Source of the DNA: Nitrospirota bacterium
GTDB lineage: Bacteria > Nitrospirota > Nitrospiria > Nitrospirales > Nitrospiraceae
Assembly (NCBI GenBank): GCA_004296865.1
Contig: SCVQ01000573.1
Span: 1 to 12,389, forward strand
Direction of reading: 5' to 3'
DNA: 12,389 bases
In this document: positions 738 to 12,123 of the stretch, in pieces
Numbering within the stretch: the first letter of the stretch is position 1
How the letters are laid out: every line of letters begins with the position of its first letter
The notes under the pieces: model-generated
What the model saw: the letters and a program-made list of their open reading frames with translations, nothing else
The model's database searches: none
What the model was told of the DNA's origin: nothing
Program-made: the position numbers and the translations under genes

Positions 738-1997
738 ATGATGATGGGAGAGCCTGTCTTGAAGCAGCCTACTAACATCGGTCATCCCCGTCTAGTCGCC
801 GCGATCGCCGCGGAAATCCAGGCGTCCGGGCCAATCACCTTTGCCCATTTCATGGACCTGGCCCTCTACCACCCCGAATTCGGCTACTACACCCATACAA
901 ACGATGCGGTCGCTGAACATACTGCCGGCGAAGATCGGATCGGCCCGGATCGAACGTGTGAAGATCGCATCGGATGGTCCGGCGATTTCTACACCAGCTC
1001 GGACGTCCATCCTGCGCTCTCTCACGCACTGGCACGACAGGTCCGCCAGATCGACGACCTGCTCGGCCGGCCCGATCCCTTCACGGTCATCGAGATGGGC
1101 GCGGGCAAGGGCCTCCTGGCCCGCGACTTTCTGGCAGCCAGCGAGAAAGACTCGGCCTCCTTTTTCAACCGCCTCCGCTATGTGCTCGTCGAGCGCAGCC
1201 AGGCCATGCAGGCTTCGCAACGGGCCCACCTGGCCCCCTGGATGAACGCACAAGGCCGCGTTTCCTGGCTCGACGGCCTGGAAGAATTGGCATCCGGCAG
1301 CGTGACCGGCGTGATGCTGTCCAACGAACTGGTGGATGCCTTTCCCATCCACCGCATCACGATCGGCGACGGCGAGCCGAAAGAAATCTTCGTGGACTAT
1401 CAAGACGGGCGGTTCTGCGAGAGGCTGCAGCCTCTCTCCACCCCAGCCCTGTCGGACTACCTGCAACGCCTTGCGCAGTTGGAGATCACGCTCCCGGAGG
1501 GGTACAAGACCGAGATCAACCTGGACGCCCTCGCCTGGATGAAACACGTGGCGCGGGTGTTGGGGCGCGGGGTCGTCATCACGATCGACTACGGCCACAC
1601 GGCGCAGGACCTCTACGGGCCGGATCGGCGCAAGGGCACGCTCCTATGCTACCATCGGCAAATGACGTCGGAGACTCCCTACGAGCGGGTGGGACGCCAG
1701 GACATGACGGCCCACGTGGACTTCACGAGCTTAGCGGCAGTGGGTGAAGACGCGGGCCTGCGCGTGACCGGGTTCACGAATCAAATGAGCTTCCTCATGG
1801 GCCTCGGCGTCGAGCAACTGATCGAGTCGTTGGAGCCGGGATCGGCGGAATTCCAGTCGCTCATCCAGTTGCTGAAGCCGGAAGGCATGGGGCGGACGTT
1901 CAAGATCCTGATCCAGCATAAGGGCCTGGCCTCGCCGGAATTAGACGGGATCAGGTTCAAACCTTTTTTCGGCTCGGTGCTGGCCATGAAGAGCTAA
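738..1997 (+). CDS. midA: MidA/NDUFAF7-family SAM-dependent methyltransferase (complex I assembly factor)
   Basis: This 419-residue protein belongs to the DUF185/COG1565 family. Its mitochondrial member NDUFAF7 (MidA) dimethylates an arginine of the complex I 49-kDa subunit, the NuoD homologue. Visible motifs in order: ALYHPEFGYY (42-51), GDFYTS (82-87), SAM-binding motif I EMGAGKG (119-125), SNELVDAFPIHR (195-206), ITIDYG (281-286) and QDMTAHVDFT (321-330). A roughly 20-residue stretch between the first two motifs contains a repeated EDRIG and looks like a lineage insertion. The start is uncertain: ATG 738 (followed by two more ATGs) has no ribosome site, whereas TTG 759 follows GGGAG at 746-750 with 8 nt spacing. 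The gene sits just before nuoA, and its stop codon lies inside a palindromic element. A role in maturing NuoCD is inferred from family and context. Confidence 0.9.
   Translation: MMMGEPVLKQPTNIGHPRLVAAIAAEIQASGPITFAHFMDLALYHPEFGYYTHTNDAVAEHTAGEDRIGPDRTCEDRIGWSGDFYTSSDVHPALSHALARQVRQIDDLLGRPDPFTVIEMGAGKGLLARDFLAASEKDSASFFNRLRYVLVERSQAMQASQRAHLAPWMNAQGRVSWLDGLEELASGSVTGVMLSNELVDAFPIHRITIGDGEPKEIFVDYQDGRFCERLQPLSTPALSDYLQRLAQLEITLPEGYKTEINLDALAWMKHVARVLGRGVVITIDYGHTAQDLYGPDRRKGTLLCYHRQMTSETPYERVGRQDMTAHVDFTSLAAVGEDAGLRVTGFTNQMSFLMGLGVEQLIESLEPGSAEFQSLIQLLKPEGMGRTFKILIQHKGLASPELDGIRFKPFFGSVLAMKS
930..973 (+). repeat. In-frame 30-nt near-duplication within midA
   Basis: GAAGATCGGATCGG (930-943) recurs as GAAGATCGCATCGG (960-973), 13 of 14 bases identical and exactly 30 nt apart. 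It encodes EDRIG twice (residues 65-69 and 75-79), ten residues apart. This suggests a small in-frame duplication in a loop just before the conserved GDFYTS motif. Confidence 0.6.
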
Positions 1998-2072
1998 TGG
2001 CATATAGCTGATGGCAAGAAAAGTTTCGCTAGTCCGAACCATACGCTATCTGCCATGAGCCATTCGCTCTTC
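1988..2072. repeat. Heptamer palindrome element 1 (midA-nuoA), NNATGGC type
   Basis: The left arm runs in 7-nt steps: GAAGAGC, TAATGGC, ATATAGC, TGATGGC. The reverse complement of the right arm gives GAAGAGC, GAATGGC, TCATGGC, AGATAGC. The last five bases of each unit match in register while the first two vary. The central core starts GCAAGAA at 2014 and ends TCCGAACC at 2040. The left arm covers the last codons and the TAA stop of midA; the right arm ends 11 nt before the nuoA start. It lacks a T-run, so it is not an obvious terminator. Confidence 0.8.
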
Positions 2073-2083
2073 GGAATTAAATT

Positions 2084-2455
2084 ATGTCCAACGAATCAGT
2101 GCCGCTGAATTATATCCCGATCCTGATCTTCATCATGATCGCCCTGGGCTTCGGGGTCGTGTCGCTTTTGGCCGGCCGGGTGGTCCGACCGAGCAAGCCT
2201 TATCGGGCCAAGCTGACGCCCTACGAGAGCGGCAGCCCCCTCTTCTCCGATGCGCGCATCCAGTTCCCGATGCGGTACTACGTCATCGCCATGTTGTTCG
2301 TCATCTTCGACATCGAGATCGTGTTCATGTTCCCCTGGGCGGTGAGCTATCGCAAGCTGGGGCTGCTCGGCCTGCTGGAAATGGGGCTGTTTATCGGCGT
2401 TCTGATCGTGGGCTTCTGGTACGCCTGGAGGAAAGGCGCGCTGGAGTGGGACTGA
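2084..2455 (+). CDS. nuoA: NADH-quinone oxidoreductase subunit A
   Basis: NuoA is a small membrane subunit at the quinone-site end of complex I, related to mitochondrial ND3. The 123-residue protein has the usual three membrane segments (about 10-31, 64-86 and 95-116). The loop between the first two contains YESGSPLFSDARIQFPMRYY (47-66), and FDIEIVFMFPWA (75-86) carries the conserved acidic residues of the second helix. The position of the ND3 switch cysteine is a serine here (Ser49), as in the E. coli protein. The ATG at 2084 follows a weak GGA (2073-2075) and an ATTAAA tract. It is the first nuo gene, 86 bp after midA. Confidence 0.97.
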   Translation: MSNESVPLNYIPILIFIMIALGFGVVSLLAGRVVRPSKPYRAKLTPYESGSPLFSDARIQFPMRYYVIAMLFVIFDIEIVFMFPWAVSYRKLGLLGLLEMGLFIGVLIVGFWYAWRKGALEWD

Positions 2456-2530
2456 CGGAAAGCTATCAGCCATCAGCATTCAGCCGTCAGCTTTCCGAAC
2501 TGCTGAAAGCTGAGAGCTAACAGCTTACGG
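2456..2530. repeat. Heptamer palindrome element 2 (nuoA-nuoB), NNTCAGC type
   Basis: The left arm is GGAAAGC, TATCAGC, CATCAGC, ATTCAGC, CGTCAGC. The reverse complement of the right arm is CGTAAGC, TGTTAGC, TCTCAGC, TTTCAGC. Two perfect 9-bp stems share bases 2489-2495 and so exclude each other: 2456-2464 with 2489-2497, and 2487-2495 with 2505-2513. The middle contains TTTCCGAAC, resembling one end of the core seen in other elements. The array starts at the base after the nuoA stop and ends at the nuoB ribosome site. Confidence 0.8.
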
Positions 2531-2532
2531 AG
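2529..2532 (+). promoter_or_regulatory. nuoB ribosome binding site
   Basis: GGAG lies 8 nt before the ATG at 2541, directly at the end of the right repeat arm. It supports that start codon. Confidence 0.6.
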
Positions 2533-2540
2533 CTTCTGTT

Positions 2541-3020
<480 letters not shown>

Positions 3021-3128
3021 GCGAATGGCGAAGAGCCTATGGCGAATGGCATATGGCCGATGGTAAGAAAATCGTTCCGCGAAGCTTGTGATACTCGTCT
3101 TACTATAAGCTATTAGCCATACGCTCTT
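3021..3128. repeat. Heptamer palindrome element 3 (nuoB-nuoCD), NNATGGC type
   Basis: The left arm begins right after the nuoB stop: GAAGAGC (3030-3036), CTATGGC, GAATGGC, ATATGGC, CGATGGT, preceded by GCGAATGGC. The right arm, reverse complemented, reads AAGAGC, GTATGGC, TAATAGC, TTATAGT. The centre starts GTAAGAAAA (3063) and contains TTCCG, a degenerate form of the core in elements 1 and 4. It is the longest of the spacers and visibly more A+T-rich than the genes. It ends 9 nt before the nuoCD start. Confidence 0.78.
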
Positions 3129-3137
3129 GTTATAAGC

Positions 3138-4886
3138 ATGCATTCACTACTCGAAACACTAAAAACCAGGTTCCCCGAGGCCGTCCTGTCGGTGAAGGAA
3201 GACACGGAGCGCGGCGAACTCTCCCTGCGCGTGGCCGCCCCCTGCTTGCTGGAGGTCGCCACCTTCCTCCATGACGACCCTTCGGCTGCCTTCGACCACA
3301 TCACCGACATCTGTTCGGCCGACTATCCGGATGATACAGAGCGCTTCGAAGTAATTTACCACTTCCTGTCGCTTCCGCACCGCACCCGCATTCGTATCAA
3401 AGCCCGGGTGACGGAGGACGACCCGACAATCGCCTCGGTCACCGGCATCTGGAAGGGGGCCAACTTCCTGGAGCGGGAGGTCTATGACCTCATGGGCATC
3501 CGCTTCAGCGGCCATCCCGACTTGCGGCGGATCCTCATGCCGGAGGACTACGACGAAGGCCACCCCCTGCGAAAGGACTTCCCCACCGAAGGCAGGGGCT
3601 GGCGGAGCCGGTTCGAGTTCATCCCGCGGCTGGACGAACCGGCGGCGGAAGGGCTCGACGAGGACATCTCGGAGGAACAAAGGAAGGTGTTTGTGTCCGA
3701 GTCCGGCCCCTCTTCCCATCGGACCGAAGAACTGCTGCTGAACATGGGGCCGCAGCACCCCGCAACCCACGGGGTCTTGCGGGTCGTGCTCGAATTGGAC
3801 GGCGAACGGATCGTCAAGGCGACGCCGGATATGGGGTACCTGCACCGAGGAGTGGAGAAGCTGGCCGAAGGGCTGGCCTACATGCAAATCATCCCCCACA
3901 CGGACCGGCTCGACTACATCTGCTCGATGAGCAATAACTACGCCTACGTGCGTGCGGTGGAGAAGCTGCTGAAGCTGGAGATCCCCGAGCGGGCGGAATA
4001 TATCCGGACCATCGTGGCCGAGATGCAGCGCATCGTCGGACATCTCTTCTGGCTGGGGACCCAGGCCCTGGACATCGGCGCCATGACGGTTTTCTTCTGG
4101 ACCTTCCGCGAGCGCGAGGTCCTGTTGGACCTGTTCGAGAAACTCTGCGGCGCCCGGCTCACGCTGAACTATTTCCGCATCGGCGGAGTGGACAGCGACT
4201 TCACCCCGGATTTGGTCCAGCGGCTGACCGCCTTTCTGGAAGCCTTTCCCGGCCACATCAAGGAATATGAGGAGTTGCTCCAGACGAACCGGATCTGGGT
4301 GGGCCGCACGAAGAATGTGGCGGTCATTTCCGCTGAAGACGCGATCAACTTCGGCCTCACCGGGCCGGTGCTCCGGGCCTCCGGCGTCGCCTACGACGTA
4401 CGAAAGCTGGAGCCCTACGGCGCCTACGGCAAAGTCGAGTGGGAAGTGCCGGTCGGCAAGAACGGCGACACCTACGACCGCTACTGGGTCCGAATGGAAG
4501 AGATGCGCCAGAGCAGCCGCATCATCGCGCAATGCCTGGCCCAGATGCCCGAGGGTCCCATCGTGGCCGACGCACCCCAGATCGTCCCGCCGCCCAAGGT
4601 CAAGGTCATGCGGGACATGGAGAGCTTGATCCATCACTTCATTCTCTTCACGCACGGGTTCAAGCCGCCCAAGGCCGAGACCTACTGCGCGACCGAGGCG
4701 CCCAAGGGCGAGTTGGGCTTCTTCATCATCAGCGACGGGAGCCCGCGCCCCTACCGGATGAAGATCCGCTCTCCGTCCTTCGTCCACATGGGAGCCTTCG
4801 ACCACATGGCGCGGGGTTATTTGATTTCCGACATCATCACGATCTTCGGCACCTACGATATCGTGATGGGGGAATGTGACAGATAG
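3138..4886 (+). CDS. nuoCD: NADH-quinone oxidoreductase fused subunits C and D
   Basis: One 582-residue protein combines the 30-kDa NuoC and 49-kDa NuoD subunits, which form the peripheral-arm core around the quinone site. NuoC spans about 1-165, with the signature EREVYDLMGI (112-121), FSGHPDLRRILMPEDY (123-138) and GHPLRKDFP (141-149). A charged linker (about 165-197) leads into NuoD, which starts near LLLNMGPQHPATHG (199-212). His207 and Tyr260 (in DRLDY) correspond to the quinone-binding His59 and Tyr108 of the bovine subunit. Arg237 in YLHRGVEK corresponds to the arginine methylated by NDUFAF7 in mammals. C-D fusion is also known in E. coli and other lineages. No clear ribosome site precedes ATG 3138. 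Confidence 0.97.
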   Translation: MHSLLETLKTRFPEAVLSVKEDTERGELSLRVAAPCLLEVATFLHDDPSAAFDHITDICSADYPDDTERFEVIYHFLSLPHRTRIRIKARVTEDDPTIASVTGIWKGANFLEREVYDLMGIRFSGHPDLRRILMPEDYDEGHPLRKDFPTEGRGWRSRFEFIPRLDEPAAEGLDEDISEEQRKVFVSESGPSSHRTEELLLNMGPQHPATHGVLRVVLELDGERIVKATPDMGYLHRGVEKLAEGLAYMQIIPHTDRLDYICSMSNNYAYVRAVEKLLKLEIPERAEYIRTIVAEMQRIVGHLFWLGTQALDIGAMTVFFWTFREREVLLDLFEKLCGARLTLNYFRIGGVDSDFTPDLVQRLTAFLEAFPGHIKEYEELLQTNRIWVGRTKNVAVISAEDAINFGLTGPVLRASGVAYDVRKLEPYGAYGKVEWEVPVGKNGDTYDRYWVRMEEMRQSSRIIAQCLAQMPEGPIVADAPQIVPPPKVKVMRDMESLIHHFILFTHGFKPPKAETYCATEAPKGELGFFIISDGSPRPYRMKIRSPSFVHMGAFDHMARGYLISDIITIFGTYDIVMGECDR

Positions 4887-4887
4887 A

Positions 4888-4980
4888 CAAAGAGCATATG
4901 GCAAATGGCTTATGGCCGATAGCAAGGAGTTCAGCTCGCTCCGGACCATAAGCCATACGCCATAAGCCATTAGCTCTTCG
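4888..4980. repeat. Heptamer palindrome element 4 (nuoCD-nuoE), NNATGGC type
   Basis: This is the cleanest element. Left units are CAAAGAGC, ATATGGC, AAATGGC, TTATGGC, CGATAGC; right units, reverse complemented, are CGAAGAGC, TAATGGC, TTATGGC, GTATGGC, TTATGGT. The fixed five bases pair in register, whereas the two leading bases mostly do not, so the folded form would be short helices separated by small internal loops; slipped registers also pair well. The core GCAAGG...TCCGGACC (4922-4947) closely resembles that of element 1. It ends 9 nt before nuoE and is followed by ATTAAA. Confidence 0.85.
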
Positions 4981-4989
4981 ATTAAAGAG

Positions 4990-5517
4990 ATGCTGAAAGA
5001 AAAATACAAAGCTGAGATCGACGAGATTCTGAGCCGGTATCCGGTGCGGCGGTCGGCCTTGCTGCCCTTGCTCTACCTGGCCCAGCAGGAAGAGGGGTAC
5101 GTGAGCGAGCCGGCGATGAAGGAGATCGCGTCCATCCTGCGGCTCACCCCCCCGCAGGTCTATGAGACGGTCACCTTCTACACGATGTTCAACCTCAAGC
5201 CGATCGGGAGGTTTCACATCCAGGTCTGCAAGTCGCTCATGTGTGCCCTGGTCGGCTCCGATCCCCTCATCGGGTGGCTGGAGGCCAAGTTGGATGTCAA
5301 GCCGGGCGACACGACGAAGGACGGGCTGTTCACGTTGAGCAAGGTGGAATGCCTGGGTGCCTGCGGGACCGGCCCCATGATGCAGATCAACAGCGACTAT
5401 TACGAGCGGCTGACCGAAGAGAAAGTGGATCGGATTCTGGCCGACTTGAAGCGCGACGGCACTTCGACGCTCAAGAGCGGCCCCTTCATGTGGCCGGAAC
5501 CGGCGCAACGGGCGTGA
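4990..5517 (+). CDS. nuoE: NADH-quinone oxidoreductase subunit E (24 kDa, N1a cluster)
   Basis: NuoE is the thioredoxin-fold subunit of the NADH dehydrogenase module and carries the off-path [2Fe-2S] cluster N1a. In this 175-residue protein the ligands are Cys80 and Cys85 (VCKSLMC) and Cys121 and Cys125 (CLGAC), in the classical C-x4-C and C-x3-C pattern. The N-terminal helical part (about 1-70) contains LLPLLYLAQQEEGYVSE and PPQVYETVTFYTMF, typical of the family. The ATG at 4990 follows ATTAAAGAG. The TGA stop at 5515 is part of the next palindromic element. It is followed by nuoF and nuoG, giving the usual E-F-G block. Confidence 0.97.
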   Translation: MLKEKYKAEIDEILSRYPVRRSALLPLLYLAQQEEGYVSEPAMKEIASILRLTPPQVYETVTFYTMFNLKPIGRFHIQVCKSLMCALVGSDPLIGWLEAKLDVKPGDTTKDGLFTLSKVECLGACGTGPMMQINSDYYERLTEEKVDRILADLKRDGTSTLKSGPFMWPEPAQRA

Positions 5518-5597
5518 AGCGTCATTCGTATCTCGTCGCTCGCAAGAAAGAAATCCGAGATGTCTAACGCTTCACGCTTCACGAGTGACGTTTCACG
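5513..5597. repeat. Heptamer palindrome element 5 (nuoE-nuoF), NCGTGAA type
   Basis: Left units step by seven: GCGTGAA, GCGTCAT, TCGTATC, TCGTCGC. Reverse-complemented right units are TCGTGAA, ACGTCAC, TCGTGAA, GCGTGAA, GCGTTAG. The outermost 17 bases of the arms (5513-5529 and 5581-5597) are complementary with two mismatches. The core starts GCAAGAA at 5542 and contains TCCGAG at 5554-5559. The nuoE stop TGA lies in the first unit. An in-frame GTG at 5585 lies inside the right arm, which argues against it as the nuoF start. Confidence 0.78.
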
Positions 5598-5608
5598 AGA
5601 TTAAAGCA

Positions 5609-6919
5609 ATGCCCAAGCACGAGCCAGTCCTGTTAAAGAACATGCTGCAGCCGGGCTACACCGGCTCGCTCGCGGACTACGAGCGGGCGGGCGGCTATCA
5701 GGCCCTGAGGACGGTCCTCGGCAAGATCCCGCCGGCGGAAGTGACCCACATGGTTATAAAGTCCGGCTTGCGAGGGCGCGGCGGCGCCGGCTTCCCGACC
5801 GGCGTCAAGTGGGGCTTCCTCCCGAAAGACTACACAGGACCCAAGTACCTCTGTTGCAACGCCGACGAGAGCGAGCCGGGGACGTTCAAGGACCGCCAGT
5901 TGATGGAGCGCGACCCCCACCAAGTGCTGGAAGGGATCGCGATCGCCTGCTATGCCATCGGCGTCGAGACGGCCTACATCTACATCCGCGGCGAGTTCGC
6001 CCTGGGCGCAAAAATCCTGGAGGCGGCGATCCGTGAAGCCCGCGCGGCCGGCTATCTAGGCACCAACGTGCTCGGCACCGGCCGCACGATGAATGTCTGG
6101 GTGCATCGAGGCGCAGGCGCCTACATCTGCGGCGAGGAAACGGCGCTGCTGGAATCATTGGAAGGCAAACGGGGCCTGCCCCGCGTGAAGCCCCCGTTCC
6201 CTGCCACGCACGGCCTCTACAACAAGCCAACCGTGGTGAACAACGTGGAGACCCTGGCCAACTTGCCGCACATCATTACCCGCGGCCCTGACTGGTTCGC
6301 CTCGATCGGGTCGCCGCCCAAGAGCGCCGGCACCCGCATCTTCTGCGTGAGCGGCCACGTCAAACGGCCGGGTAACTATGAAGTGCCGATGGGCATCACC
6401 TGCCGGGAATTGATCTTCGAGCAGGCGGGAGGGATGCGGTCGGACAAGCCGCTCAAGGCCTTTATCCCGGGCGGGGCCTCGGCCCCGTTTCTGACCCCCG
6501 ACCATCTGGACGTGAAGCTGGACTTCGAATCGGTGGCTCAAGCCGGCTCCATGCTCGGGTCCGGCGGCGTCACGGTCATGGAAGAAGGCACCGACATGGT
6601 CTGGGCCGCGCTGCGCCTGACGGAGTTTTTCTATCACGAGTCCTGCGGCAAGTGCAGCCCCTGCCGCGAGGGCAGTTCCTGGCTGGTCCAGACCCTGCGC
6701 CGCATCGTGGCCGGACAGGGACGGATGCAGGACCTTGAAACGCTGACCGATTTGTGCCAGAACATCGCGGGGCGGACGGTCTGCGCCTTCGGCGACGCCG
6801 AGGTATCGCCGATTCTGAGCACGCTGAAGTACTGGCGGCACGAATACGAGGCGCTCATCCGCGCAGCGGAAGCCGACGGGCCGACGGAGTTGCTCATGCC
6901 GACCGCAGCGAGACATTAG
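5609..6919 (+). CDS. nuoF: NADH-quinone oxidoreductase subunit F (51 kDa, FMN and N3)
   Basis: NuoF oxidises NADH and passes electrons through FMN to cluster N3. From ATG 5609 the protein has 436 residues. The glycine-rich flavin/NADH segment GLRGRGGAGFPTGVKW is at 53-68, NADESEPGTFKDR at 84-96, and GAGAYICGEETALLES at 168-183. N3 ligands are Cys346, Cys349 and Cys352 (SCGKCSPC) plus Cys392. An upstream in-frame GTG (5585) would add eight residues, but it falls inside a repeat arm; ATG 5609 follows GAGATTAAAG, much like the nuoE leader, and gives the usual N-terminus. The gene is followed after 42 bp by nuoG. Identification is secure; only the start is a choice. Confidence 0.97.
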   Translation: MPKHEPVLLKNMLQPGYTGSLADYERAGGYQALRTVLGKIPPAEVTHMVIKSGLRGRGGAGFPTGVKWGFLPKDYTGPKYLCCNADESEPGTFKDRQLMERDPHQVLEGIAIACYAIGVETAYIYIRGEFALGAKILEAAIREARAAGYLGTNVLGTGRTMNVWVHRGAGAYICGEETALLESLEGKRGLPRVKPPFPATHGLYNKPTVVNNVETLANLPHIITRGPDWFASIGSPPKSAGTRIFCVSGHVKRPGNYEVPMGITCRELIFEQAGGMRSDKPLKAFIPGGASAPFLTPDHLDVKLDFESVAQAGSMLGSGGVTVMEEGTDMVWAALRLTEFFYHESCGKCSPCREGSSWLVQTLRRIVAGQGRMQDLETLTDLCQNIAGRTVCAFGDAEVSPILSTLKYWRHEYEALIRAAEADGPTELLMPTAARH

Positions 6920-6961
6920 CGCGGGATGACTTTACAGGCTTTCTAACTTTACGACTGATTT

Positions 6962-9643
6962 ATGCCACACGCGGCGGTTGACACAGTGACGCTGACCATC
7001 GACGGGCACCACCTCACGGTCCCGAAAGGCACGCTCGTGATCGAGGCGGCGCGTCAGGCCGGGGTGATGGTCCCCCATTTCTGCTACCACCCCAAACTCA
7101 AACCGGACGCCAACTGCCGCATGTGCCTGGTGGAAGTCGAGAAAATGCCGAAGCTGCAGACCGCCTGCAGCACGCCAGTGGCCGAAGGGATGGTCGTGCG
7201 GACCGCCACCACGGTCGTCAACGAGGCCCACAAGTCGGTGCTGGAATTCATCCTCGCCAACCACCCGCTGGACTGTCCCGTCTGCGACCAGGGCGGCCGC
7301 TGCGACCTGCAGGACTTCTCGCATCAGTACACGCCCACCACCAGCCGGTTCATCGAGGTCAAGCGGGTCTTCCCGAAGGAATACTTCAGCCCGTTGATCG
7401 AGACCCAGATGAACCGCTGCGTCCAGTGCCTGCGCTGCGTCCGGTACTGCGACGAAGTCATGGACGTGAAGGCCCTCGCCCCCTCCGGGCGGGGCACGAT
7501 GACCGAGATCAAGTCCTTTCTCCATCACGAACTGGACTGCGAGTTCTGCGGCGGGTGCGTGCAGATCTGCCCGGTCGGTGCCATCACCAGCCGCCTGTCC
7601 ATGTATGAATACCGGCCCTGGATGCTGAAACGCGCCGACACGGTCTGCACCTACTGCGGGGACGGCTGCCAGATCACGATCCAGACCAAGGACAACCAGT
7701 TGGTCGAAGTCATGTCGGCCCAGGGCGCCGGCCGCAACAACGGCGACCTCTGCGCCAGGGGATTCTTCGGCTACCACGTCAGCACCCACCCGGATCGCCT
7801 CCGGCATCCCCTCATCCGGCGCGACGGGGTGCTCGTCCAGGCCACGTGGGAAGAGGCGCTGGAGCTGGTTGCTGAGACCGCCGTCCGCCTGAAGCTCGCG
7901 CACGGTCCGAACGCCTTCGCCGGCCTGATCGCCGCGCGCTGCACGAACGAAGACCTGTACCTGTTCCAGAAATTCATGCGGCTGGCCATCGGCACCAACC
8001 ACCTCGACAGCAGCGCCCGCTACGGGCAGATCAACGGAGTCCGGGCGCTCCGCCGCGTGCAAGGCACCCACCGCTGGACGGTCACCTTCGAGGACATCGT
8101 CTCGGCCGACGCCCTCTTGCTGGTCGGAACGAATATCACCGAGACCAATCCGATCACCGGCCTCAAGGTCAAGGAAGCGGTCAAGAAGCGGCAGGCGACG
8201 CTCCTCACGATCGACAGCCTGGAGCCGGCGGTCGGCGCCATCAGCAACATCGCCAACCTCTCATCGCATCATTTCTCCGTCCACCCGGACCGGTTCAAAC
8301 CGGCCGTGTTGGGCCTCATCAAGGCCGTCGTCGAAGACGGGCATGTGGACCCGACGCTGGCGCAGCGGGCGCCCGCCTACCTGCAGACCATCAGCGATTC
8401 GGTGCAGGACCTCTCATGGCCCGCCATCGAGGCCGCCACCGGAGGCACGCCGGAATCGTTCCGGGAGGCCGCCCGCACGTTCGCCCGCTCGGCTCGCGCC
8501 GTGATTCTGATCGGACAAGGCGTCTTGCGGACGGCGGACGGATACGGCCTCGCCACCACGCTGTTGGACCTGCTGCTGCTCACCGGGCAGCACGGCCGCC
8601 CCGGCTGTGGCCTGGCCCCTCTGGCCGAGGAGAACAACGACCAAGGGGCGGTGGAGATGGGCGCCGTGGCGGAGTATCTCCCTGGGCCGGGCGACCTGAG
8701 CGACCCGGCCGCCCGTTCGCGCGTGGCACAACTCTGGAAAGAGGATCTGCCCCAGGAACCTGGCCTGACGCTGATGCCCATGCTGGAACGCGCCAGGGCC
8801 GGCGCGCTCAAGGCCATGTTCATCGTCGGCGAGAATCCGGTGGGCTCGCTCCCCCTGTCGGCCAAGGCCAAAGAAGCGTTGCAGAGCCTGGAATTTCTGG
8901 CCTGCCAGGAACTGTTCCTCACCGAAACCGCGCAGCTCGCGCATGTCGTCCTGCCGGCCTGCTCCTATGCCGAGAAGGACGGGACCTTCACGAACACCGA
9001 GGGACACGTGCAGGCCGTGCGCCATGCGATCGATCCGATCGGCGAAAGCCGGCCCGACTGGGAAATCTTCTCCGCCCTCTCGGTGCTGATGGGCTATCCG
9101 CTCGAGTACGGGGATGCCAAAGAAATTCTCAAGGAGATCCGAAGCCTGATCCCCGACTACGGACGCCTGGGCCCGGCGCCGACGCCGATGCGCCCGGCGA
9201 CTGAAGCCGTGGACGGCTACCTCCACACCGGCTATGCGACGGATGCAGCCGACCGCTATGCCCTGTCGGGCACGGGGCACGAGGCGCGGGGGGCGGGGAA
9301 CGATGGCCATCTGACGCTGCTGATCGCCCAGAGCCTCTTTCACTCCGGGAAACTTTCGACCCGCTCCAAAGGATTATTGCAGGTCCAGGCAGAGGGATCG
9401 CTCACGCTGAACCCGGCGGATGCGGCCAGGCTGGGCCTTGCGGATCGCGACCAGGTCCGCGTTACCAACAACCTCGGCGCGATGACCACGACCGTCATGT
9501 TGGCGGAGCGCGTGCCGAAAGGCCTGGTCCTCTTCCCGGAACACTTCGATCAAGAGGCGCGTCGGCTCCTGACCGTCTCAACGGACCCGGTCACACAGGT
9601 GCCGTATTACAAGCTGACGCAAGTAACAATTGAGAGGCTATAG
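6962..9643 (+). CDS. nuoG: NADH-quinone oxidoreductase subunit G (75 kDa), with extra [4Fe-4S] site
   Basis: NuoG relays electrons from NuoF towards NuoI. The 893-residue protein has, in order: a [2Fe-2S] domain (Cys41, Cys52, Cys55, Cys69; N1b); the His/Cys cluster N5 (His101, Cys105, Cys108, Cys114); two ferredoxin-like motifs, CVQCLRCVRYC (Cys153, 156, 159, 163) and CEFCGGCVQIC (Cys193, 196, 199, 203); an N7-type motif CTYCGDGC with Cys264 (229-264); and a molybdopterin-oxidoreductase fold with its C-terminal barrel near 800-880. Minimal NuoG has only the first ferredoxin-type triplet plus the last cysteine, forming N4, so a further [4Fe-4S] cluster is likely. The residues SSARYGQ stand where catalytic formate dehydrogenases have Cys/Sec-His, so molybdenum catalysis is unlikely. 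No ribosome site is obvious before ATG 6962. Confidence 0.96.
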   Translation: MPHAAVDTVTLTIDGHHLTVPKGTLVIEAARQAGVMVPHFCYHPKLKPDANCRMCLVEVEKMPKLQTACSTPVAEGMVVRTATTVVNEAHKSVLEFILANHPLDCPVCDQGGRCDLQDFSHQYTPTTSRFIEVKRVFPKEYFSPLIETQMNRCVQCLRCVRYCDEVMDVKALAPSGRGTMTEIKSFLHHELDCEFCGGCVQICPVGAITSRLSMYEYRPWMLKRADTVCTYCGDGCQITIQTKDNQLVEVMSAQGAGRNNGDLCARGFFGYHVSTHPDRLRHPLIRRDGVLVQATWEEALELVAETAVRLKLAHGPNAFAGLIAARCTNEDLYLFQKFMRLAIGTNHLDSSARYGQINGVRALRRVQGTHRWTVTFEDIVSADALLLVGTNITETNPITGLKVKEAVKKRQATLLTIDSLEPAVGAISNIANLSSHHFSVHPDRFKPAVLGLIKAVVEDGHVDPTLAQRAPAYLQTISDSVQDLSWPAIEAATGGTPESFREAARTFARSARAVILIGQGVLRTADGYGLATTLLDLLLLTGQHGRPGCGLAPLAEENNDQGAVEMGAVAEYLPGPGDLSDPAARSRVAQLWKEDLPQEPGLTLMPMLERARAGALKAMFIVGENPVGSLPLSAKAKEALQSLEFLACQELFLTETAQLAHVVLPACSYAEKDGTFTNTEGHVQAVRHAIDPIGESRPDWEIFSALSVLMGYPLEYGDAKEILKEIRSLIPDYGRLGPAPTPMRPATEAVDGYLHTGYATDAADRYALSGTGHEARGAGNDGHLTLLIAQSLFHSGKLSTRSKGLLQVQAEGSLTLNPADAARLGLADRDQVRVTNNLGAMTTTVMLAERVPKGLVLFPEHFDQEARRLLTVSTDPVTQVPYYKLTQVTIERL

Positions 9644-9712
9644 GCGATGGGCGATAGGCTATGGGTCGGAACGTCTTGCCTAGAGCCGATTGCCCCGCGC
9701 CTCTAGCCCATA
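9633..9712. repeat. Heptamer palindrome element 6 (nuoG-nuoH), CNATNGG type, inverted core
   Basis: Left units read CTATAGG, CGATGGG, CGATAGG, CTATGGG. Reverse-complemented right units read TTATGGG, CTAGAGG, CGCGGGG, CAATCGG, CTCTAGG, a looser match. The centre GGTCGGAACGTCTTGCC (9664-9680), read on the minus strand, starts GGCAAGA and ends TTCCGACC, the same core as elements 1 and 4 but in the opposite orientation. The nuoG stop TAG is part of the left arm. The nuoH ribosome site begins where the right arm ends. Confidence 0.72.
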
Positions 9713-9717
9713 AGGAG
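9712..9717 (+). promoter_or_regulatory. nuoH ribosome binding site
   Basis: AAGGAG lies 5 nt before the ATG at 9723. It is the strongest Shine-Dalgarno match in the operon and fixes the nuoH start. Confidence 0.75.
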
Positions 9718-9722
9718 TTTAC

Positions 9723-10784
9723 ATGGCTGAAGTCGGATTGAAATTGGCGTTCTCGGTAGCCCAGATCGCCGTGGTCATGGGCATCGTCCTGCTGACCGTC
9801 ATGTTCCTCACGCTGGCGGAACGCAAGGTCCTCGGCTGGATGCAGGATCGGATGGGGCCCATGGAAGTGGGGCCCTACGGGGTCTTGCAGCCCATCGCAG
9901 ACGGACTGAAGCTGTTCTTCAAGGAAGACATCGTCCCGGCCGGTGCGAACAAATTTCTCTTCACCCTGGCGCCGATCCTCGCGCTGGTCCCGGCCCTCAT
10001 CGGCTTCGCGGTGGTGCCCTTCGGCCCCAACCGGACCGTCGAGCTGTTCGGCTATCAGTTTCAGCCCTTCGTGATCAGCGACATCAACATCGGCATCCTC
10101 TACATCCTGGCTTTCACCTCCATCGGCGCCTACGGCATCATCCTCGGCGGCTGGGCCTCCAACAGCAAATATTCGCTGCTGGGGGGGTTGCGGTCGGCCG
10201 CCCAGGTGATCAGTTATGAGTTGAACGTCGGGCTGGCTATCGTCGGGGTGCTCCTGCTGGCCGGTTCACTCAGCCTGGTGAAGATCACCGAAGCCCAGGC
10301 CGGAGGATTCTGGCACTGGTACATCTTCGCGTTTCCTTTCCCGCAGGTCTTCGCCTTCGTCGTCTACGTCATCTCGGCCGTGGCGGAAACCAACCGGGTG
10401 CCCTTCGACCTGCCCGAAGCCGAAAGCGAGCTGGTGGCGGGCTTCTTCACCGAATACAGCGGGATGCGGTTCGCGTTCTTCTTCCTGGCGGAATACGCCA
10501 ACATGATCCTGGTCTCCTGCATCGCCGCCGCGCTGTTCCTGGGCGGCTGGAACGCGCCCTACCCCGGCACTTTGCTCCCCGAGAACCTGGCCTGGGTGGA
10601 GGGCGTCGTCTGGTTTGCGGTCAAAGTCTATTTCTTCCTGTTCCTGTTTTTCTGGTTGCGCGCGACGCTGCCGCGCTTGCGTTACGACCAGCTCATGCGG
10701 TTCGGCTGGAAGGTGATGCTCCCGATCGCACTGGGCAATATCCTCGTAACCGCCATCGCGGCGTACTTTTTTCCGAAAGGATAA
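9723..10784 (+). CDS. nuoH: NADH-quinone oxidoreductase subunit H
   Basis: NuoH is the membrane subunit that completes the quinone chamber and links it to the proton channels (ND1 homologue). The 353-residue protein has about eight membrane segments. Family motifs are [16 protein letters not shown] (31-46), [19 protein letters not shown] (143-161) followed by ISYE (163-166), and [20 protein letters not shown] (221-240) followed by [20 protein letters not shown]. The acidic residues in the loop at 230-244 are those usually placed near the quinone-to-membrane coupling path. The start is fixed by a good ribosome site. A palindromic element lies on each side of the gene. Confidence 0.98.
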
Positions 10785-10888
10785 GCTGTCAGCAATCAGC
10801 TCTCAGCTATCAGGCAAGAAGATGTGTGCAAAAATGGTGTGTCCGGATTCGGAAGCTGAATACTGACGGCTGACTGCTGAAGGCTCAG
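10785..10888. repeat. Heptamer palindrome element 7 (nuoH-nuoI), NNTCAGC type
   Basis: Left units are CTGTCAGC, AATCAGC, TCTCAGC, TATCAGG. Reverse-complemented right units are CTGAGC, CTTCAGC, AGTCAGC, CGTCAGT, ATTCAGC. These are the same unit type as element 2, eight kilobases away. The core is longer than elsewhere: it starts GCAAGAA at 10814 and ends TCCGGA at 10842-10847. The array starts immediately after the nuoH stop codon and ends 2 nt before nuoI, so its last bases include the nuoI ribosome site. Confidence 0.8.
10879..10883 (+). promoter_or_regulatory. nuoI ribosome binding site inside a repeat arm
   Basis: GAAGG lies 7 nt before ATG 10891 and within the right arm of element 7. Folding of the element could therefore hide or expose this site, which is an inference from position only. 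Confidence 0.5.
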
Positions 10889-10890
10889 TT

Positions 10891-11430
10891 ATGAAATTCA
10901 AAGCCTGGCTCAAGACGATCCTCTTTTACGAGATCCTGATCGGCATGAAGGCCACGCTCATGCACCTGGTGCACTACAAACCGATCACGCTGCAGTACCC
11001 GCACGAGAAACGAACGCTGCCGGACAGCTATCGCGGCATGCTCTCATTGCTGCGCTACGACGACGGAACGGAGAAGTGCGTCGGCTGCGACCTCTGCGAG
11101 GCGGCCTGCCCGTCCCGGGTGATCAAGGTGGTCAGCGCGGAGGTGCCCGGCGAGCCCACCAAGCGGTACGCCAAGGAATATTACATGGACATGACCCGCT
11201 GCCTGTTCTGCGGGCTCTGTGTGGATGCCTGTCCGGTGGACGCGCTGGGCATGACCCGCGAGTACGAGTGGGCCGTGTACGACAAGCGGCTGCTTCAGCT
11301 GAACAAGCAGCAACTCCTGGCGATCGGGGATCGGTCCTTCCCGGTGCGGGAGAAACGGCTGGAATTGCAGCATCCCAACGTGGCGTTCTTCAACGTCGCA
11401 TTTAAGCATTTGCCGCCGAAGCACACGTAA
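10891..11430 (+). CDS. nuoI: NADH-quinone oxidoreductase subunit I (two [4Fe-4S] clusters)
   Basis: NuoI carries clusters N6a and N6b, the bridge from NuoG to N2 in NuoB. The 179-residue protein has an amphipathic N-terminal stretch (about 1-30) that usually lies on the membrane, then two ferredoxin motifs: CVGCDLCEAACP (Cys63, 66, 69, 73) and CLFCGLCVDACP (Cys104, 107, 110, 114). All eight ligands are present. GAAGG lies 7 nt before the ATG. Downstream is an 89-bp spacer lacking the usual palindromic element, then nuoJ. Length and motif spacing are typical for the family. Confidence 0.98.
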   Translation: MKFKAWLKTILFYEILIGMKATLMHLVHYKPITLQYPHEKRTLPDSYRGMLSLLRYDDGTEKCVGCDLCEAACPSRVIKVVSAEVPGEPTKRYAKEYYMDMTRCLFCGLCVDACPVDALGMTREYEWAVYDKRLLQLNKQQLLAIGDRSFPVREKRLELQHPNVAFFNVAFKHLPPKHT

Positions 11431-11519
11431 CGCGATCCTCCACGCCCTGAGGATTGGAGTACGGGCGAAGACCGGTCATCGCGAACTGACGCGCAAGCAG
11501 GGCAAGAGGGTCCCACACT
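11431..11519. other. nuoI-nuoJ spacer with a small hairpin, no heptamer element
   Basis: This 89-bp spacer is more G+C-rich than the other long spacers and shows no seven-base periodicity. It contains a 6-bp stem, ATCCTC/GAGGAT (11435-11454), with an 8-nt loop and no following T-run. It ends with the nuoJ ribosome site. Confidence 0.5.
11505..11510 (+). promoter_or_regulatory. nuoJ ribosome binding site supporting a GTG start
   Basis: AGAGGG lies 9 nt before GTG 11520. There is no ATG near the expected N-terminus, so this site supports GTG as the nuoJ start codon. Confidence 0.55.
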
Positions 11520-12047
11520 GTGGCACTAGCGTTCTTCTTCTACTTCTCCGGGGTGATCGTCCTGACCTCCGTCTTGGTGGTGGCGCTTCGGAATCCCATC
11601 TACAGCGCCATCTCCCTGCTGATCATGTTCTTCCACGTGGCGGGACTCTACGTCACCCTCCACGCCGAATTCCTGGCCGCCGTCCAGATCATCGTCTACG
11701 CCGGCGCCATCCTGGTCCTGTACCTGTTCGTGGTGATGTTGCTGAACGTGAAGCGCGAGGAACGCTACCATGCCCAGTTCCCGCTGGCGGCGCTCTTGGG
11801 CGTGACCATCCTGACCGAGGTGCTGATGCTGGCGATCCTCCGCGGCTTCTCTTCGGAACCGCTGCCGACGTTGGGCGGCGCCGGACAGGCCGACCAGGCA
11901 ACCGGGAACACCGAGACGATCGGGGAGGTCCTGTACTCGACCTACCTGTTCCCGTTCGAAGTCGCCTCGCTGATCTTGCTGGTGGCGATGATCGGCGCGA
12001 TCGTGCTGGCCAAGAAAGACATCGGTTTGGCGAGCCGTAATCAGTGA
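11520..12047 (+). CDS. nuoJ: NADH-quinone oxidoreductase subunit J
   Basis: NuoJ is a membrane subunit (ND6 homologue) whose third helix takes part in coupling quinone reduction to proton movement. The 175-residue protein has five membrane segments (about 3-23, 27-47, 53-76, 87-109 and 141-164). The family hallmark VQIIVYAGAILVLYLFVVML (55-74) is intact. Translation starts at GTG 11520, supported by AGAGGG upstream. The loop between helices four and five (about 111-138) is long and polar, rich in Gly, Gln and Thr, where the family varies. The TGA stop at 12045 falls inside the first unit of the next palindromic element. Confidence 0.96.
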   Translation: MALAFFFYFSGVIVLTSVLVVALRNPIYSAISLLIMFFHVAGLYVTLHAEFLAAVQIIVYAGAILVLYLFVVMLLNVKREERYHAQFPLAALLGVTILTEVLMLAILRGFSSEPLPTLGGAGQADQATGNTETIGEVLYSTYLFPFEVASLILLVAMIGAIVLAKKDIGLASRNQ

Positions 12048-12118
12048 TGCCTCATGCGTAACGCGAACAGGACACGCATGTCCCCAAACTCGTCACGCAT
12101 CACCCATTACGCATAACG
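12044..12118. repeat. Heptamer palindrome element 8 (nuoJ-nuoK), GTNATGC type
   Basis: Left units are GTGATGC, CTCATGC, GTAACGC. Reverse-complemented right units are GTTATGC, GTAATGG, GTGATGC, GTGACG. The centre holds a separate small perfect hairpin, GGACA/TGTCC with loop CGCA (12070-12083), and only a faint trace of the core seen elsewhere. The nuoJ stop codon lies in the first unit, and the right arm ends at the nuoK ribosome site. Confidence 0.72.
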
Positions 12119-12123
12119 AGGGG
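12118..12123 (+). promoter_or_regulatory. nuoK ribosome binding site
   Basis: GAGGGG precedes ATG 12126 by only 2 nt, closer than usual. Its GAGG part (12118-12121) leaves 4 nt, which is acceptable. Confidence 0.5.

Follow-up and report, generated by a model that had tools for sequence, protein, structure and literature searches.

Facing arrays of degenerate seven-nucleotide units between the genes of nuo operons in a Nitrospirota bacterium and its relatives

The window analysed here is a whole stretch of 12,389 bases from a Nitrospirota bacterium (SCVQ01000573.1, here C501), which is one complete contig of a draft genome of 2.71 Mb in 613 contigs. It carries a nuo operon in which Pfam supports the gene order midA-like methyltransferase, nuoA, nuoB, a fused nuoCD, nuoE, nuoF, nuoG, nuoH, nuoI, and nuoJ (ten proteins checked). 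The nuoI gene is identified by 4Fe-4S domains only, and nuoK is assigned by its position and by tblastn to relatives. The spacers between these genes contain elements built of 7-nt units (heptads), which typically form two arrays facing each other across a centre. An earlier note, made from the letters alone, had described such heptads in eight of the ten junctions from midA to nuoK, and the periodicity holds up. The lag-7 self-match was reached by none of 500 dinucleotide shuffles for the nuoA-nuoB, nuoB-nuoCD, nuoCD-nuoE, nuoE-nuoF, nuoG-nuoH, nuoH-nuoI, and nuoJ-nuoK spacers, and by two of 500 for midA-nuoA. The nuoF-nuoG and nuoI-nuoJ spacers are without heptads, since shuffles often reach their lag-7 self-match (388 and 159 of 500, respectively). 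A repeat test with 200 shuffles and ten extra upstream bases gave 0/200 for all eight periodic spacers and 0.25 for nuoI-nuoJ, with nuoF-nuoG (42 nt) being shorter than the minimum length tested. Shuffled spacers of equal composition, the check that the note had proposed, thus do not reproduce the periodicity of the eight. Its further claim that all eight are facing arrays stood for six, which are caught by a strict detector requiring opposed arrays of one word; nuoG-nuoH and nuoJ-nuoK are missed because their arm match is too weak, though both are periodic.

The eight elements, none of which is assigned a strand, differ in word and layout. In units of the ATGGC and TCAGC words, about five bases are fixed and two are free, ATGGCNN standing opposite NNGCCAT and TCAGCNN opposite NNGCTGA, and the nuoE-nuoF element is looser. 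The midA-nuoA element (1988–2072) has ATGGC/GCCAT arms of 3+4 units, at 1997, 2004, and 2011 and at 2038, 2045, 2052, and 2059. Its left end GAAGAGC is made of the last midA codons and continues into the TAA stop, which lies within the element (GAAGAGCTAATGGC), and its right end is GCTCTTC. The centre of this element (2016–2037, + strand) reads AAGAAA...TCCGA and exemplifies a centre motif, GCAAGAAA/TTCCG, that occurs in some of the ATGGC- and CGT-word elements. The nuoA-nuoB element (2466–2527) is of the TCAGC/GCTGA type with 4+4 units. The nuoB-nuoCD element (3025–3129) is of the ATGGC/GCCAT type with 5+2 strict units and the right end GCTCTTG, and so is, with 4+4 units and the ends AAGAGC..GCTCTTC, the nuoCD-nuoE element (4890–4979). 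The nuoE-nuoF element (5513–5602) has 2+5 strict units of CGTGA/TCACG. The nuoG-nuoH element (9640–9712) is composed of ATAGGCN/CCTATNG-type heptads in imperfect arms, and the nuoH-nuoI element (10782–10887) of 5+5 TCAGC/GCTGA units; relatives G020 and G021 have CAGTT/AACTG units at the latter junction. The nuoJ-nuoK element (12053–12120) has TCACGCA-type heptads on the right and a weak left arm. Foldability is unequal among the eight, because the fold-energy z against 200 shuffles spans −6.3 for nuoCD-nuoE, the most foldable, through −3.4 (nuoB-nuoCD), −2.3 (nuoG-nuoH), and −1.1 (nuoJ-nuoK) to −0.6 (nuoE-nuoF). As a separate observation, the non-heptad nuoI-nuoJ spacer (11431–11519) has an inverted repeat of its own, GCCCT..AGGGC, as does the same junction at loci L026, L031, and L032. 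This spacer is 92/95 identical between G020 and G062, and a longer one takes its place in G031.

The note had confined the elements to one nuo operon, a scope that proved too narrow. It had also proposed a scan of the genome and its relatives for intergenic inverted heptad arrays, which was run on the main sample of 0.95 Mb from the own genome and relatives, in which nuo regions are over-represented. The scan found 158 inverted 7-nt arrays against 2, 2, and 5 in three shuffles that excluded loci containing N, with reversed and complemented word controls giving 14 and 30 period-7 matches, above the shuffles. Inverted 8-nt arrays numbered 25 against 1, 3, and 1, and periods 5, 6, and 9–12 showed no clear excess over their own controls in this sample. 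The words vary among elements and include ATGGC, TCAGC, CGTNA, AAGTC, and others, on a plan that stays constant. The commonest arm layout is 4+4 units (39/182 elements), and the centres are mostly 10–45 nt long. Inverted elements account for 107 of the 123 four-unit 7-nt arrays, which bears out the note's statement that the arrays face each other, unlike the direct arrays of cyanobacterial short tandemly repeated repetitive (STRR) sequences. The TCAGC word has a polarity: pattern matches in 61 genomes, with overlapping registers counted, have TCAGC in the 5' arm 317 times and GCTGA in the 5' arm eight times. The ATGGC family has the common ends AAGAGC..GCTCTT at most ends, and its centre, often with AAGAAA and TTCCG, has a motif partly common to the CGT-word family. 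Specifically, AAGAAA occurs in 12/31 ATGGC centres against 0.31 expected, and CGCAAG in 9/26 CGT centres against 0.61 expected.

Seven elements were found in 93 kb of the own genome (15 contigs picked by number, four of them masked), which by extrapolation perhaps holds about 200. The pattern TCAGCNNTCAGCNNTCAGC is present in 38/61 genomes and its reversed control in 0/61. We compared 43 nuo operons of families f1–f4, testing spacers of 50–300 nt for periodicity and excluding gaps below −60 or above 500 nt. Among the 192 such spacers of family f1 (30 genomes), lag 7 is significant (p<=0.01) in 115, lag 8 in 26, and either of them in 137, so that the longer nuo gaps of f1 are mostly filled by elements; lags 5, 6, 9, 10, and 11 are significant in 7, 5, 9, 2, and 1. 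Family f3 (9 genomes) has lag 7 or 8 in 9/43 nuo spacers. Families f2 (3 genomes) and f4 (1 genome), the four outgroup operons, have no nuo spacer of 50–300 nt, and their median gaps are 0.5 and 0 nt. The note's view that the spacers look expanded or inserted is supported, as the same genes are contiguous in f2 and f4 and the presence of an element at a junction differs between sister species. Beyond the family, a scan of named records found facing TCAGC arrays in at least 117 stretches, taxa being taken from the record titles of the 80 listed. Among these listed matches are Planctomycetota, Acidobacteria, Methylomirabilota, Deltaproteobacteria, Elusimicrobia, Omnitrophota, Verrucomicrobia, Bacteroidales, Chloroflexi, Moorena, and others, and several of the records are Nitrospira metagenome-assembled genomes, which is one reason to regard the present bacterium as probably Nitrospira-like. 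The 117 TCAGC-selected loci gave 66 non-TCAGC matches at period 7; as 34 and 31 such matches also arise at periods 6 and 9, the 66 include coding periodicity and the same arrays read in a shifted register.

The placement of the elements follows the gaps between co-directional genes. Gene calls by a crude finder put 145 of the 182 elements in gaps between co-directional genes; 6 have convergent and 3 divergent neighbours, 19 fall within called genes (cases not inspected singly), and 9 are unclassified. The background, spacers of 60–400 nt in the same operon-biased sample, comprises 267 co-directional, 16 convergent, and 25 divergent cases. The 145 co-directional elements start at a median of 5 nt past the stop codon and end at a median of 12 nt ahead of the next start. 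Some nuo spacers of relatives are longer. The nuoA-nuoB spacer at L026 (G002, 264 nt) and the nuoA-nuoB and nuoCD-nuoE spacers at L030 (G018) measure 172–264 nt and, in nuo sense, contain non-heptad palindrome-like sequence of the CTCGC..GCGCGCAGTC type. The nuoE-nuoF spacers at L041 (G026) and L047 (G017) reach 450 and 459 nt, and in G026 additional sequence separates the heptad arrays.

The note had suggested comparing orthologous nuo spacers of sister species, and this comparison found junctions kept, swapped, or empty. At a 4-fold divergence of 0.17–0.28, element-bearing nuo spacers of sister species have an identity of either >=0.85 or <=0.71, and the intermediate range of 0.77–0.84 holds three comparisons, all of the short element-free midA-nuoA spacer. 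Replacement is fast: 20/91 comparable elements with both flanks found are kept and 71/91 are changed or absent, the 71 including 56 in which the flanks align across and the element falls below 0.80 identity or 70% coverage. These 91 were drawn from genus g19, from G000 (the own genome)/G002/G021, and from G006/G025, each species pair being compared once from the first species' elements; elements <=260 nt from a stretch end, centres >60 nt, and 53 comparisons without one or both flanks were excluded. Several times the same junction has another word on the same plan in a sister species. In genus g19, the nuoF-nuoG junction of G020 holds an 8-nt AAGTC array where G031 has a 7-nt array of GAGGT, and at another junction G020 is empty, G031 carries an array of AATT type, and G062 one of CAATG type. 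The CGT element of nuoE-nuoF is 83–85% identical among G000, G030, and G031, which belong to different genera, and alignable in G008 of a third other genus, whereas G020, of the same genus as G031, has an ATGGC-type element instead. Separately, the 8-nt AAGTC array of nuoF-nuoG (L067, L033, L034) is 85–90% identical between genera g5 and g19.

Elements that are kept change slowly. Changed positions amount to 46/725 for unit, 36/237 for free, 56/383 for centre, and 887/7858 for flanking positions, the flanks being mostly coding. Unit and free positions differ (Fisher p 8e-5), with p 0.07 when the G000/G002/G021 set, in which 17/42 free positions changed, is left out. In nine stricter kept pairs, 16/333 unit, 6/115 free, 16/141 centre, and 26/213 outside positions changed. 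In both sets the change lies below the 4-fold divergence of 0.17–0.39, a comparison in which the divergence of kept elements is pulled down because they are chosen by an identity threshold. Indels between kept orthologues measure 7, 7, 7, 8, and 1 nt.

The element class is real, statistically strong, and biologically odd. We tentatively favour, at a probability of about 0.42, that its members are exchangeable, non-coding palindromic spacers between cistrons and persist because of their architecture rather than their word. An element is an inverted pair of about four-unit arrays of 7 nt, sometimes 8 nt, flanking a short centre and running from a stop codon to the next co-directional start. The persisting property would be the dyad, the unit length, and the placement, with different words being interchangeable. 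A foldable intercistronic palindrome may be useful, or at least harmless, at this position and hence be kept; by analogy with repetitive extragenic palindromic (REP) sequences, it might shield the untranslated stretch that separates two cistrons or serve as its spacer. Element spacers of 55–140 nt fold with a mean z of −2.43 against their own shuffles (n=130), compared with −0.73 for non-element spacers (n=32), which is as expected because the arrays face each other. The spacers fold well and the base-level signs of a hairpin are negative, and we therefore attribute what is retained, tentatively, to the architecture.

Several results weigh against this reading. The largest folded domain takes up 0.79 in element spacers against 0.68 in shuffles, yet it takes up 0.76 in non-element spacers. 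Complementarity of free bases across the arms is 0.388, above the between-element null of 0.267 and level with the within-element shuffle (0.396). The G/A and C/T unit variants of the ATGGC family occur without covariation, and sense-strand variants that preserve G-U pairs show no excess (85 vs 105, p 0.17). The window contains eight terminator-like sites where 7.9 are expected, and none in the eight spacers. Unit and free bases changed equally in the nine stricter kept pairs, and "kept" is itself defined by an identity threshold of 0.85 or 0.80, which bounds divergence from above. Given the missing covariation and G-U bias, an mRNA hairpin kept base by base was rejected, and the hairpin role that the note had considered is left without base-level support. 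An intrinsic terminator was also rejected, as none of the eight spacers has a G+C stem with a run of T behind it. At gathering scores, Rfam matched nothing in the window.

A Shine-Dalgarno-like 4-mer is rarer behind elements than behind other spacers (38/137 vs 61/124, p 5e-4; start codons projected by homology, 16/277 junctions of intermediate p excluded). A ribosome shunt, in which a hairpin joins stop and start, fits this and the placement, and is only an idea. The exterior fold length is 10.7 nt against 11.8 nt in shuffles (p 0.03), with no difference from non-element spacers. Neither 7 nor 8 is a multiple of 3, and a stop codon within the unit would close every frame. Such a stop-codon ladder was rejected, since stops in all frames occur in 82/146 elements against 70.6 ± 5.4 after column permutation, not clearly enriched, with any arm and strand tested; one of the four arm/strand classes is higher (31 vs 19.1 ± 3.4).

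A selfish or mutational by-product is a somewhat unlikely alternative. Here slippage, template switching, or non-homologous insertion would produce and change the arrays, which would be tolerated in operon gaps only and serve the host in no way. The whole-unit indels between kept orthologues fit this account, and the rarity in divergent spacers could be plain purging. Units within an element also share free bases above the between-element level: in 116 TCAGC elements of named genomes, neighbours are identical 65 times where a pool shuffle gives 44.5 ± 6.2, and for all words together the values are 94 and 47.4, in a pool that mixes words. Against shuffled order within the element, however, neighbouring units are no more alike (94 vs 104 ± 7.6 for all words, 65 vs 64.6 for the 116 TCAGC elements), and the arms are not mirror copies beyond the within-element likeness of units. 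Both results count against a by-product because fresh tandem or inverted duplication predicts both likenesses, and the strict TCAGC polarity and the slower change of kept elements than of 4-fold sites stand against it as well. As a test of origin by slippage, a general avoidance of identical neighbours was considered and rejected. It appears in ATGGC (5 identical vs 11.8 in shuffled order, 6/1000 shuffles as low) and, by base match against the pool, in TCAGC, and it is not general because it is absent in other words and in the 116 named-genome TCAGC elements. Heptads are reported to be over-represented among longer simple repeats, and polymerase slippage has been proposed (PMC4679880, PMC4692102), in line with a mutational origin.

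That the elements are DNA-level protein arrays is unlikely. Omega protein binds 7-bp heptads and MetJ binds 8-bp boxes, and a binding protein, e.g. of ribbon-helix-helix type, would coat each dyad, with one protein per word. The presence of both 7- and 8-bp spacings, the strict left-hand position of TCAGC, and the keeping of word identity without arm covariation or G-U bias agree with such arrays. However, one operon has several words, and sister species exchange them, a pattern for which specific regulators do not easily account; the elements also are intercistronic and seldom lie in divergent regions (3/182).

We consider it very unlikely that the elements are classical miniature inverted-repeat transposable elements (MITEs) or REP-like elements moved in trans by a transposase. 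That sister species may have or lack an element at the same orthologous junction would suit a mobile element, and so would the common ends and partly shared centre motif of the ATGGC family. In addition, free bases match above the pool null in copies of ATGGC (0.57 in the same genome vs 0.46) and CGT (0.55 vs 0.47), and one ATGGC pair, with one member in G012 and the other at a different junction in G002, agrees at 12/12 free bases compared (null maximum 0.83), although the two elements have 81% identity over 73 nt. On the other side, ATGGC copies match nearly as well between genomes (0.55), and same-genome TCAGC copies are at the null level (0.32 vs 0.33). Near-identical copies within a genome are absent among the sampled elements, which cover parts of genomes: the best same-genome pairs match at 0.75 of free positions, one CGT pair of G004 at 0.86, and same-genome BLAST pairs in the sample are <=86% identical. 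These values fall short of the near-identical copies that define a MITE and disfavour the small mobile element that the note had entertained. The sampled elements show no plain trace of recent transposition as a whole or of fresh duplication, tandem or inverted, and a donor beyond the sample is conceivable. No target-site duplication was obvious by eye in several empty/filled pairs, and the nuoCD-nuoE element, the one queried, had no plasmid or phage match. The Y1 transposase PF01797 does not follow the elements in the manner of a REP-associated tyrosine transposase (RAYT). It is found in 33/61 genomes, without tracking the counts of TCAGC, the sole word counted: it has no match in G020, G017, and G034 (43, 37, and 37 TCAGC matches) or in G006 and G010, eight matches in G013 (0 TCAGC), two in G031 (44), and one in G021 (31). 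REP sequences are placed between cistrons and are not known to contain a heptad ladder. Like REPs and bacterial interspersed mosaic elements (BIMEs), the present elements are palindromic, extragenic, and high in copy number; unlike in those, the copies share little except the word, plus ends and centre in ATGGC, and the Y1 transposase does not follow TCAGC counts. REPs are tagged by a GTAG or CGTC tetranucleotide at the end of a 20–40 nt palindrome (PMC3733652).

The faintest of the candidates is a dedicated process that writes the arrays de novo from both sides of the junction, as a fixed 5-nt word plus two untemplated bases in 7- or 8-nt steps, through an activity that might be telomerase-like or a reverse transcriptase; it would explain the lack of near-identical siblings in the sample, neighbours that are no more alike than distant units, the unmirrored arms, the strict TCAGC polarity, and a word found in many phyla, and its odds are lowered because ATGGC and CGT free bases match somewhat above the pool null.

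Among known systems, the closest lie in cyanobacterial introns and in Xanthomonas. Costa and co-workers reportedly described heptads in the trnL P6b stem-loop in 2002. In the P6b of the trnL (UAA) group I intron, class I heptads read TDNGATT and class II heptads NNTGAGT (PMC4476775; PMC3488679). The P6b stem of lichen-symbiotic Nostoc always has one of two 7-nt motifs, and the region has been repeatedly replaced with similar secondary structure (Kaasalainen et al. 2015, PMC4476775). The elements resemble it in having facing degenerate heptads with fixed and free positions, a word class swapped as a block while the structure is kept, and whole-unit indels, and they thus make degenerate heptad palindromes in the same sense. 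They differ in that P6b is one intron locus with two words in cyanobacteria, whereas here many loci and words, an 8-nt variant, and another lineage are involved; being intercistronic and without an Rfam match in the window, they do not belong to the P6b group I intron. In Xanthomonas, GGGAATC arrays form 70 and 75 opposite-strand close pairs in two genomes (Rehm et al. 2015, PMC4692102), in a G-quadruplex study of one G-rich word that also occurs as single arrays; the present units have two free bases and many words and are mostly paired. Predicted regulator sites of Geobacter metallireducens are likewise arrays of 7- or 8-nt units, 5 x MTYCTGA in class 3 and GTTGCTYN octads in class 1, the latter paired on opposite strands at variable distance; unlike here, the two classes number 16 and 48 sequences and have a single consensus word apiece, and they are predicted to be binding sites (PMC2700814). 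The TAACTGA repeats of Beggiatoaceae occur as 169 direct sets and one indirect repeat (PMC4679880).

Cyanobacterial STRRs are intergenic 7-nt direct repeats. Both they and TAACTGA share the intergenic 7-nt unit with the present elements and differ in being direct repeats of one exact word, so the elements, with most arrays inverted and about two of seven bases free, are not STRRs or simple heptad repeats. Among the papers listed for the literature covered, with most subscription journals outside it, there was none on a family-wide class or on Nitrospira intergenic heptamers; the note's statement that no named family matches stands in this sense, qualified by the close precedents in Nostoc trnL P6b and Xanthomonas GGGAATC. 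Where the precedents have a single locus or a single word, this class takes the degenerate heptad palindrome to many intercistronic loci, with fast turnover and an exchangeable word. Swapped letters on a kept architecture make it hard to see for identity-based repeat finders. If the architecture is functional, it would be a general intercistronic device; if not, it would represent an unexplained way of making ordered repeats. Both possibilities can be tested directly at the many sister-species junctions, where old, new, and empty states occur.

Two further features adjoin the operon or resemble it. Upstream of midA, positions 10–483 of the window hold an open reading frame of 157 aa, and a 7-nt period is absent from the gap of 254 nt that separates it from midA. 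Elsewhere in the own genome, contig G000:C250 (L007) carries a second nuo-like cluster, in which the C and D subunits are separate and TCAGC elements adjoin.

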